Shown piece by piece: positions 1,545-3,438 of a stretch of DNA of 25,011 nt. The DNA is taken from positions 1 to 25,011 of IMG/VR virus record IMGVR_UViG_3300046535_000471; one strand, written 5' to 3'. Position 1 is the stretch's first letter, and every line of letters begins with the position of its first letter. The translations under genes were made by a program, and so were the position numbers. Below the pieces are notes generated by a model that had not been told where the DNA came from, did no database searches, and saw only the letters and a program-made list of their open reading frames with translations. Source of the stretch: a virus.

Positions 1545-2589
1545 GAGCTACAACTATTTTCGGTTTCCGGGGCAGCCGAAGGTCACTTTGCCTCGCGGCG
1601 ATGTCGGGTCAGGCGAGTTTCAAGCCGCGTATCGGGCAGCTCTCGCGGCGGCGCAATCGAAGGCAAAGGATCGGTCGCCGCCAGCGGCAAAAACATCTGC
1701 CGCAGTCGGCACCTTGCGCGCCAACGTCATGCGCTATCTTTCGAGTGCATTGTTCTGCGCGTTGCGGCCGAGCACGCAGACCATGCGTCGCCGCATCCTG
1801 ATGGGGTGGTGTGACGGCACCAAGCGGACGCCGGCCTATGGCGAGCTACCGCTCGTCGAAATCACATCGGTCGCCTTTGCTAAAATGATGTATGCGCGCG
1901 AGCGCACGCCCGGCGCGCAGCGCACATTTCTTTGTGCGGTTCGCCATCTGCTGAAGGATTGCAAAAAGGCGCAGACGATAGACGCCGTGTTCGACCCGAC
2001 CCGCGACCAGCATTGCGGCCGCGGGCAAAATCCCGAAGGTCTGAAGTGCTGGCCCGAGGAAATGGTCGCGCAGTATCGCGCCTATTGGCCGAGCGGCACC
2101 ATGCAACGCCTCGCGCTTGAGGTGCTCTACGAGTCGGGGGCGGCGTGTTGCGACGCCATCAAGCTCGGGCGGGATAACATCGTCGACGGGTTGATCGTAT
2201 TCGACCGACAGAAGACCGGCGCCAGTTCGTTTCGGCCGTTCACGGCGGCGCTAGAGCGTGAACTCGCGGCCTCTCCAGTGGTCGCGATTACGGGCCCGTG
2301 GTTGCGCACCCCGTCGCAGGGCAGGCCGTTCAAGAGCGCGCACGATTTCGGCCTGCGGTTCGCGGTGTGGGCAAAGCAGGCCGGCGTCCCGGCCGGCTAC
2401 TCGGCGCACGGTATCCGCAAGCGGGCCGCCACCGATCTCGCCGACGCGGGCGAAAGCATCCACACATTGATGGCCGAGTTCGGCTGGAACGATCCCGACC
2501 AGGCGATCCATTACACCCGCAAGTCGGAGCGCAAACGGCTCGCGATGGCACGCGCGGAACGGATCAGAACCGCGGCTAAATCATTTTGA
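1513..2589 (+). CDS. int: Tyrosine site-specific recombinase (phage integrase), atypical Arg I
   Basis: The 358-aa product is a phage integrase for site-specific insertion and excision. I chose the ATG at 1513 because translation from there gives the usual rhizobial integrase N-terminus ('RYVQSYKSYNYFRFPG') and a GGGAAG-like site lies about 10 bases upstream; the frame is open further 5' but overlaps the 69-aa gene. Visible catalytic elements: a beta-hairpin lysine (K234 in 'RQKTG'), the H299-x-x-R302 box ('AHGIRKRA'), W325 at the His/Trp position and the nucleophile Y334 ('AIHYTR'). The box that should carry the first catalytic arginine reads S-G209-A-A-C-C-D214, so no Arg is present at that site or its direct neighbours. 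It is either a diverged family member or impaired. Confidence 0.9.
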   Translation: MKKLRYVQSYKSYNYFRFPGQPKVTLPRGDVGSGEFQAAYRAALAAAQSKAKDRSPPAAKTSAAVGTLRANVMRYLSSALFCALRPSTQTMRRRILMGWCDGTKRTPAYGELPLVEITSVAFAKMMYARERTPGAQRTFLCAVRHLLKDCKKAQTIDAVFDPTRDQHCGRGQNPEGLKCWPEEMVAQYRAYWPSGTMQRLALEVLYESGAACCDAIKLGRDNIVDGLIVFDRQKTGASSFRPFTAALERELAASPVVAITGPWLRTPSQGRPFKSAHDFGLRFAVWAKQAGVPAGYSAHGIRKRAATDLADAGESIHTLMAEFGWNDPDQAIHYTRKSERKRLAMARAERIRTAAKSF

Positions 2590-2609
2590 CAAAATCGGGC
2601 CAAACCCAC

Positions 2610-2688
2610 TGTCTAACCCTTTGATTTATTGAGCGCGCGACAGTTCACCTGGAACTAGCGGTATCGCGCGAAATCAAAGGCTTAGACA
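2610..2688. repeat. Long imperfect inverted repeat just downstream of integrase (attP candidate)
   Basis: The 18-base arms 2610-2627 (TGTCTAACCCTTTGATTT) and 2671-2688 are reverse complements with one mismatch. Between them lies a smaller palindrome, AGTTC-acctg-GAACT (2642-2656), giving a nested symmetric structure of 79 bases that begins 21 bases after the integrase stop. The position 3' of an integrase gene, between integration and tail modules, is where a phage attachment site is expected. There is no run of T, so an intrinsic terminator is unlikely. The symmetry is seen directly; a role as recombination core or protein-binding arms is inference. Confidence 0.6.
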
Positions 2689-2695
2689 ACAGGTT

Positions 2696-2724
2696 TTGAC
2701 AATCGGGAACGGGAGGCTTGCTTA
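2696..2724 (+). promoter_or_regulatory. Possible sigma-70-type promoter before the hairpin repeats
   Basis: A perfect TTGACA box lies at 2696-2701, and 17 bases later there is a weak TGCTTA (2719-2724) at the -10 position. Transcription would run rightward through the hairpin repeats toward the secreted-protein gene at 3103. Two further TTGACA boxes at 2586-2591 and 2747-2752 lack a convincing -10 partner. The -10 match is poor, so this is only a suggestion. Confidence 0.25.
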
Positions 2725-2752
2725 GGTCCGTTCGGGGCGCCATAGTTTGACA

Positions 2753-2788
2753 GGCGCATTCCCGGCTCCGGCCGGCCCTCATTGAAGC
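2753..2788 (+). repeat. Hairpin repeat unit 1 (CRISPR-repeat-like)
   Basis: This unit reads GGCGC-ATT-CCCGGCT, a short loop, GCCGG, then CCCTC-ATTGAAGC. CCGGC and GCCGG can pair as a 5-bp stem around a TCCG loop. The block order GGCGC / CCCGGCT / GCCGG / CCYC / ATTGAAGC is shared with unit 2, whose first base is 68 bases downstream, leaving 32 bases between the units. The hairpin followed by an ATTGAA-type 3' handle resembles a CRISPR direct repeat, but the copies are diverged and no cas gene is present. Confidence 0.55.
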
Positions 2789-2820
2789 AGCGGCAAGTCG
2801 CGAGGCGAGCTAAACCACTA

Positions 2821-2860
2821 GGCGCTATCTTCCCGGCTAGTCGCCGGGCCCCATTGAAGC
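2821..2860 (+). repeat. Hairpin repeat unit 2 (CRISPR-repeat-like)
   Basis: This is the best-formed copy: GGCGC-TATCTT, then CCCGGC and GCCGGG paired as a perfect 6-bp stem around a TAGTC loop, then CCCC-ATTGAAGC. It is 40 bases long against 36 for unit 1; the differences are small insertions around the loop and before the stem. The 66 bases to unit 3 are roughly twice the unit 1-2 spacer and contain no further clear copy. Confidence 0.55.
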
Positions 2861-2926
2861 CACGATTGGCTGATTGAACACGATCGACACTGGCCGATTT
2901 CGTATTGCCGTGCGGCCTCGTGTTGC

Positions 2927-2965
2927 AGCGCATTTCCCCGGCTTCGGTCGGGGCCCCATTTCCGG
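2927..2965 (+). repeat. Hairpin repeat unit 3 with UUCG tetraloop and degenerate 3' end
   Basis: Unit 3 begins AGCGCATTT like unit 1, and its CCCCGGC and GTCGGGG arms form a 7-bp stem (one G-T pair) closed by a TTCG tetraloop, a very stable RNA hairpin. It keeps GGGGCCCC-ATT but then reads TCCGG in place of GAAGC. Loss of the 3' end in the last copy would fit the terminal repeat of a CRISPR array, though simple decay explains it equally well. A still weaker fourth copy may start at 2992, where CGCTATC and later TTGAAG recur. Confidence 0.5.
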
Positions 2966-2980
2966 TGGCCGCTCAAATCA

Positions 2981-3065
2981 ATCTTTTGGCCGGCGCTATC
3001 AAGCCGGCGCGCCGCTCGGGCATCTATCTTTGAAGGCGGCGCCGAGCGGGGGTGAACAACCCGCC
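2981..3065 (+). other. Structured non-coding leader upstream of the secreted-protein gene
   Basis: Three inverted repeats follow each other: GCCGGC-gctatcaa-GCCGGC, then CCGCTCGG (3012-3019) with CCGAGCGG (3042-3049), then GGGT-gaaca-ACCC. No reading frame here looks like a gene. The segment could be the folded 5' leader of the gene at 3103 or part of a non-coding RNA. The symmetries are seen directly; any function is unknown. Confidence 0.35.
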
Positions 3066-3102
3066 CGACGCCTCACCGCAACCGAACGTATGAGGTTCGA
3101 TC

Positions 3103-3438
3103 ATGGCTTACCGGATTTTATCAGCAGCTATCGTTGCGTGTCTTGCCACCGCAGGCGCATCCGCCCAGACCACCACGGCAACGTCGGAAACCCGGTGCTC
3201 TCGGGACGCGTGGACCCACGTCTATCATTGCCGCTCCGAGTACGACAGCCCGTACTCGAACACCACCACCTACTGCGCGTCAGGTCGTGGCGGCGCCAGT
3301 TGCGATACCGAGACGGTACGCAAACCACAGCCGAAAGTTCGGCTTCCCGACCCGCCGTATGTCCCTCCGCCCCAGCCGACCGCAGAGCGCGATCCGAGGT
3401 ACGGCGTTCAGGTCATGCGAGGCATGCCCGAGCGCTAG
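3103..3438 (+). CDS. Small secreted cysteine-containing protein, possible lysogenic-conversion gene
   Basis: The 111-aa product begins with a clear Sec signal peptide: a basic start (MAYR), a hydrophobic core to about residue 17, and an ASA-Q cleavage site after residue 21. The mature part has four cysteines (C32, C43, C58, C67), which could form two disulfides, and a proline-rich C-terminal third ('PDPPYVPPPQP'). No lipobox is present, so it should be periplasmic or secreted. A GAGG-type ribosome binding site precedes the ATG. It is the only + strand gene beyond the integrase and lies between a possible attachment region and the 3' end of the late operon, a common location for morons expressed from prophages. 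I recognise no family. Confidence 0.7.
   Translation: MAYRILSAAIVACLATAGASAQTTTATSETRCSRDAWTHVYHCRSEYDSPYSNTTTYCASGRGGASCDTETVRKPQPKVRLPDPPYVPPPQPTAERDPRYGVQVMRGMPER

Follow-up and report, generated by a model that had tools for sequence, protein, structure and literature searches.

The 25,011-nt window analysed here, which is the whole of IMG/VR record IMGVR_UViG_3300046535_000471, carries next to its integrase gene a cluster of three diverged repeats that, with a probability of about 0.9, is a cas-less, accessory locus of a phage derived from type I-G (formerly I-U) CRISPR. The locus could well work as a mini-array that supplies guides to the I-G effector of the host, and we put the odds of such a role at about even. 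A CRISPR array without cas genes, which an earlier note had proposed from the letters of the window, is thus favoured and can now be assigned to a subtype.

Gene layout and phage relatives

The window is a temperate phage from soil, with recT and a tyrosine integrase gene at its left end on the + strand and the tail, portal, capsid and terminase genes on the - strand to the right of the integrase module; TerL, portal, capsid and integrase are all found within this record. The relatives of its terminase are HK022-like phages of Proteobacteria and those of its integrase are mostly alphaproteobacterial, while the best plasmid match of its RecT is from Gemmatirosa. With the integrase as query, IMG/VR and GTDB contigs gave no match, and the DNA of 2580-3110 has nothing similar among 50,697 phages and 72,556 plasmids. 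The repeat cassette follows the integrase stop (2589) and precedes the late region, and the features of this part of the window are as follows.

1513-2589, + strand: tyrosine integrase (PF00589, 33.7 bits; phrog_1 integrase), upstream of the cassette
2602-2696, no strand assigned: 26-nt imperfect inverted repeat (TGTCTAACCCTTTGATTT ... AAATCAAAGGCTTAGACA), arms 85% complementary, fold z -6.7
2753-2964, + strand: whole cassette of three repeat units and two spacer-like segments, delimited by alignment with sibling phage L215
2757-2788, + strand: repeat unit 1, CATTCC-CGGCTCCGGCCG-GCCCTCATTGAAGC (I-G covariance model, Rfam CRISPR-DR16)
2789-2827, + strand: spacer-like segment 1, 39 nt (72-nt period between units 1 and 2)
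2828-2860, + strand: repeat unit 2, TCTTCC-CGGCTAGTCGCCG-GGCCCCATTGAAGC (I-G covariance model, Rfam CRISPR-DR16)
2861-2931, + strand: segment 2, with 71 nt roughly double a normal spacer
2932-2960, + strand: terminal repeat unit 3, ATTTCCCCGGCTTCGGTCGGGGCCCCATT (I-G covariance model; other phage arrays are likewise truncated)
2963 to about 3105-3110, no strand assigned: conserved non-array element, 88% mean column identity in four phages (window, L215, L224 and L233)

L215 is a sibling phage with a 67% identical integrase, in which both flanks of the cassette are conserved. The left flank GTTTGACAG and the right flank GTGGCCGCT are common to the two phages, and the ~212 nt between them in the window correspond to 8 nt in L215. 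Two further relatives, L224 and L233, have the block to the right of GTGGCCGCT in common with the window, their left modules being unrelated, and no I-G units were found in any of L215, L224 and L233. Because the cassette is absent from the syntenic place in L215 and the other two relatives are without units, the array is accessory cargo, carried where the integrase module meets the late region; it may have been gained in the window or lost in L215. The inverted repeat at 2602-2696 lies between integrase and cassette, outside the array, and is conserved in L215, and it is a candidate for the attP core or for a site bound by the integrase. In L233, the shared block comes after a different integrase and a segment resembling the 3' end of a tRNA (GGTGCCCAGGGGCGGAATTGAACCACCGACACACGGATTTTCAGG), which suggests that the integration module has been exchanged at the junction where the array of the window sits.

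The conserved element to the right of the cassette (2963-~3105) is noncoding, ~140 nt long, and covers the place of a weaker fourth repeat copy that had been suspected at 2992. This fourth copy has to be dropped, as there is no model hit at 2992 and the place is inside a block 86-91% identical in relatives without the array. The element (2963-~3110) precedes an ORF on the + strand (3103-3438) that codes for a small signal-peptide-like protein, the first ~14 residues of which are conserved while the remainder varies. Two antisense RNAs of Rfam match the element below threshold (Plasmid_R1162 on the + strand, 36.7 bits, E=1e-4; PtaRNA1 on the - strand, 21.5 bits), and there is a promoter-like site on the - strand at 3144-3115. 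The 2963-3438 region is possibly an antisense-RNA-controlled gene or a unit similar to type I toxin-antitoxin systems.

The repeats belong to the type I-G class

Genuine arrays of repeats that end in GGCCCCATTGAAGC and recur every 70-78 nt are present in at least 115 stretches of contigs from bacteria and archaea (GTDB), and among the matches listed these are mostly from Planctomycetota, Acidobacteriota and Myxococcota, with other phyla also represented. Consensus repeats from 99 arrays are 36-37 nt long and have a single layout, TTCC-stem(6-8 bp)-GGCCCCATTGAAGC, in which the stems vary freely and yet pair. The ORFs adjoining a sample of these 99 arrays match the PADLOC models of Cas1g (a Cas4-Cas1 fusion), Cas56g/Csb2, Cas7g/Csb1, Cas8g, Cas3g and Cas2g, and the repeat class is therefore type I-G. 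In this type, the repeat is 36 nt long, Csb2 cuts 4 nt 3' of the stem to leave an 8-nt handle, and the mature crRNA is 72 nt (PMC9638904). A TTN PAM has been reported for one I-G system. When 398 genomes were sampled from the phylum of one proteobacterial MAG, the exact-motif arrays occurred in just one, namely the seed itself, and an I-G host is therefore not to be taken for granted.

We used a covariance model of 65 cellular I-G repeats, none of them from the window, for an unfiltered scan of both strands of the whole window; its E-values are approximate, and because the training repeats were chosen by a 14-mer, the model is strict about that block. The best hit in the 25 kb was unit 2 (28.8 bits, E=8e-8), followed by unit 3 (13.6 bits, E=0.018; aligned part 2936-2960, model positions 5-31) and by unit 1 over its full length (12.6 bits, E=0.042), with the next hit at E=0.34. 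Taken singly, units 1 and 3 are weak hits (E 0.04 and 0.02), but they are adjacent to unit 2, and the top three positions are all on the + strand within 204 nt. In Rfam, there was no match in this region at gathering scores, and units 1 and 2 scored best with the family CRISPR-DR16 (RF01330), at 17.5 bits and at 21.1 bits (E=0.026), respectively, both below its gathering score of 35. Genuine I-G repeats of Singulisphaera sp. GP187 are also sub-threshold for this family (26.8 bits), and the phage array L164 reaches 22.0 and 17.0 bits. A simpler motif score, which overlooks unit 1 owing to an extra base, ranks units 2 and 3 as the top two in the window; in 60 dinucleotide shuffles it gave 0.03 hits per shuffle at the level of unit 3 and never two close together. 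A search of the literature for the repeat letters as text gave no match, and unit 2 had chance-level matches only among plasmids and phages.

The three units were confirmed at the places and in the block order that had been described for them, but, judged by the repeat class, the start of each repeat has to be moved inwards by about 4-7 nt, which leaves the initial GGCGC outside the canonical repeat. Unit 2 is the best preserved, with a 6-bp stem and an intact handle (2853-2860). Unit 1 has a 5-bp stem, one extra base ahead of the handle, and an intact handle ATTGAAGC at 2781-2788. Unit 3, with a 7-bp stem and TTCG loop as described, keeps the stem and CCCC/ATT but has lost the 8-nt handle after ATT. 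The window units are 32-33 nt long (unit 3 being truncated) as opposed to 36-37 nt for the I-G class. The handle ATTGAAGC has its last base at 2788 in unit 1 and at 2860 in unit 2, which gives a period of exactly 72 nt, whereas that between units 2 and 3 is 105 nt; a model scan to E=10 revealed no degenerate extra repeat inside segment 2. Each unit pairs, but as lone hairpins the units fold no better than dinucleotide shuffles (z 0.47, 0.04 and -0.28), and the hairpins by themselves therefore prove nothing. The non-random part of the units is the combined motif TTCC-stem-loop-GGCCCCATT(GAAGC). A single ancestral repeat of the form TTTCCCCGGCT-loop-AGCCGGGGCCCCATTGAAGC, of which L076 from Acidobacteria has an example, could have given rise to all three. 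The word 'decayed' in the earlier note is no more than partly apt: units 1 and 2 have retained their handles and their 72-nt period, the hairpins are also kept, and a last unit without its handle is what such arrays usually show.

A possible mini-array using host Cas proteins

As a mini-array, the locus would have the order repeat-spacer-repeat-spacer-truncated repeat and would use the Cas proteins of the host. Its transcript from the + strand would be cut by the host I-G Csb2 (Cas5-Cas6) just before each ATTGAAGC, at 2780/2781 and 2852/2853. The handle ends 72 nt apart lead to a predicted 72-nt crRNA with spacer 1 (2781-2852), and an over-long crRNA would carry segment 2 (2853-2957). These crRNAs would be loaded onto host Cas7/Cas8g/Cas3 and aimed at competing phages or other elements, with an efficiency that may be reduced because the repeats are diverged.

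Several results speak for such a mini-array. The period of units 1 and 2 equals the published mature I-G crRNA length, and the last unit keeps what Csb2 needs (the stem and CCCC/ATT) without the handle, which would not be needed there. The covariance ranking, the shuffles, the CRISPR-DR16 scores and the I-G cas genes beside repeats of the class also count in its favour, and so do other cas-less viral arrays with diverged units, the spacer difference between L166 and L175 described below, the loss of handles mainly from the terminal units of viral arrays, and the absence of the cassette from L215. The locus has two spacers (segment 2 being over-long) and no cas genes in a viral genome, and virus-borne mini-arrays are defined by one or two spacers, no cas genes and a viral genome. 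Neither Cas1 (PF01867) nor Csb2 (PF09609) was found in the window record, and neither was found in any of the 19 viral records with such arrays (0/19, window included), while the positive-control genomes gave matches in both cases.

Other results speak against it, namely the lack of a protospacer, the 71-nt segment 2, the weakness of units 1 and 3, and the lack of a leader or promoter match; no leader or sigma-70-like promoter was matched upstream of unit 1 on the + strand. Leaders are promoter-bearing in the SPV type, and bacteriophage mini-arrays are described as leaderless (PMC6858448). The window repeats also differ among themselves more than those of known mini-arrays, in which the repeats equal the host's (PMC11656645).

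The two inter-unit segments, which the earlier note had pointed to as queries, gave chance-level matches only in phages, IMG/VR and the other loci compared, with no convincing protospacer for either. Spacer 1 has no 17-mer match in IMG/VR, and segment 2 has an 18-mer in common with two near-identical contigs, which is at about the chance rate and does not extend. The first 14 nt of spacer 1 match the relative phage L185 (E 0.13, compatible with chance); this place sits just after the stop of the capsid gene in a stretch that is not conserved in other relatives, and we make no claim for it as a target.

Other viral I-G arrays and solitary repeats

In IMG/VR, a scan found 29 contigs that have CCATTGAAGC twice at a spacing like that of CRISPR arrays, and more than half of these have plain CRISPR-like arrays with a period of mostly 71-78 nt and the repeat (T)TTCC-stem-loop-GGC(C/T)CCATTGAAGC, the rest being mostly repetitive coding sequence. 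A scan of IMG/VR for single units of the form TTCC-N10-18-GGCCCCATTGAAGC gave 44 contigs. Two or three diverged units at 70-75 nt are present in L164, L154, L155/L162, L156, L166/L178, L175 and L150, and the last of the three units of L164 is truncated exactly like unit 3 of the window. Among the virus-derived arrays of at least two units (n=18, window included), the handle is intact in 49/54 non-terminal and 7/18 terminal units, by a regex count from which unit 1 of the window is missing and to which L025 and L175 each contribute a false unit. The records of the window, L003, L010, L019 and L162 have confirmed phage structural genes, and the viral status of some of the other records rests on the IMG/VR call.

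L166 and L175 are 72% identical over 516 nt, and both have a repeat-spacer-truncated repeat arrangement upstream of an SSB-like gene. At this same locus, the repeats of L166 (L166/L178) and L175 are near-identical and the spacers unrelated. In SPV1 and SPV2, differing spacers at one locus were taken as active spacer turnover (PMC6858448), and by comparison the L166/L175 pair gives the strongest functional hint, although L155 and L162 carry an identical spacer, which runs counter to spacer turnover.

Downstream of solitary viral I-G repeats, a terminator-like hairpin is present within 110 nt in 9/34 loci (L147, L149, L150, L152, L167/L169, L170, L172 and L180), where random stretches of these loci would lead one to expect about one. 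In L147, L149, L150, L152 and L170 the hairpin begins 29-40 nt past the handle, which is about one spacer length, as if these loci were one-repeat crRNA genes ending in a terminator. It is a speculative proposal, and one that we would not bet on, that type I-G guide loci with diverged repeats form a class of phage element so far overlooked, which would make functional crRNAs or decoys with the I-G effectors of their hosts. Such a class would include tandem units with varying but pairing stems (window, L164, L154 and L155) and one-unit versions in which a repeat and ~35 nt lead to a terminator-like hairpin (L149, L152 and L170); the divergence of the repeats would avoid recombination with host arrays, and current detectors would discard the clustered ones.

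Remnant, decoy or unrelated element

The mini-array has to be weighed against other readings of the same locus. It is somewhat doubtful that the cassette is a non-functional remnant, i.e., part of a host I-G array that was taken up at the junction of integrase and late region and is now undergoing decay through small indels. Stems of 5, 6 and 7 bp, the extra base of unit 1, the lost handle of unit 3, the irregular second period, the lack of a promoter match or leader, and the absence of the cassette from L215, L224 and L233 would all fit with decay. But every unit still pairs and units 1 and 2 keep exact handles at an exact period, and the loss of the terminal handle is normal even in longer arrays.

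An RNA anti-CRISPR (Racr) is in our assessment unlikely. Its transcript would mimic I-G repeats and sequester Csb2 and Cas7 in unproductive complexes, depriving the host of the use of its own guides, and the inter-repeat segments would have no targeting meaning. Diverged units without protospacers suit a decoy, many IMG/VR contigs carry a lone I-G repeat, and phage-encoded repeat mimics are known for several CRISPR types (PMC10651486), with activity tests for I-C, I-E, I-F and V-A, not I-G (PMC10651486). Furthermore, SRUFinder drops candidates with a second partial repeat at <100 bp, and a tandem decoy would therefore be missed. However, the exact 72-nt spacing, the kept handles, and handle loss in the last unit only are array features that a decoy need not have. 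Racrs are also defined as solitary repeats, whereas the window has three units within 204 nt, and no acr or aca gene was recognised beside the cassette in the general annotation.

Very improbable is an origin other than CRISPR, be it integrase arm-type sites, a mobile hairpin repeat family, chance GC-rich hairpins or the unrelated regulatory RNA that had also been considered, none of which found support: the cluster adjoins the integrase and its single hairpins do not outdo shuffles, but the motif is that of I-G repeats, where other viral contigs match it, the match is mostly to a CRISPR-like array or to a lone CRISPR-like repeat, the phage and plasmid sets contain no similar sequence, and L215 keeps a related integrase and the inverted repeat but lacks all three units, which argues against arm sites.

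Significance and comparison with known systems

Phage-borne CRISPR fragments can be weapons against rival phages or devices that jam host immunity. Type I-G is among the less studied type I subtypes, and our literature search found no phage element tested against it. The window locus and the sibling loci with exchanged spacers form a testable set for distinguishing a guide role from a jamming role. Our results also suggest that the search for solitary repeats on which the definition of RNA anti-CRISPRs was based overlooks diverged repeats when they are clustered.

Compared with the cellular I-G arrays (CRISPR-DR16), the window locus has the same TTCC-stem-GGCCCCATTGAAGC motif, 72-nt period and degenerate terminal repeat, but it is without cas genes, has three units only, and its repeats are non-identical with a second period of 105. 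With the Racrs or solitary repeat units (PMC10651486) it shares the intergenic position of a phage-encoded mimic of CRISPR repeats without cas genes; it differs in that its three units are clustered at array spacing and no acr neighbour was recognised. Like SPV1/SPV2 and the bacteriophage mini-arrays (PMC6858448, PMC11656645), it has one or two spacers and no cas genes and is intergenic in a viral genome, and the likeness to SPV1/SPV2 in sibling spacers at one place is seen for L166/L175 rather than for the window itself. In contrast to these virus-borne mini-arrays, its repeats are of type I-G and mutually different, with no spacer target and no leader seen. Mini-arrays and repeat mimics of phages are thus already known, and what sets the present locus apart is a less studied subtype with unusually diverged repeats.
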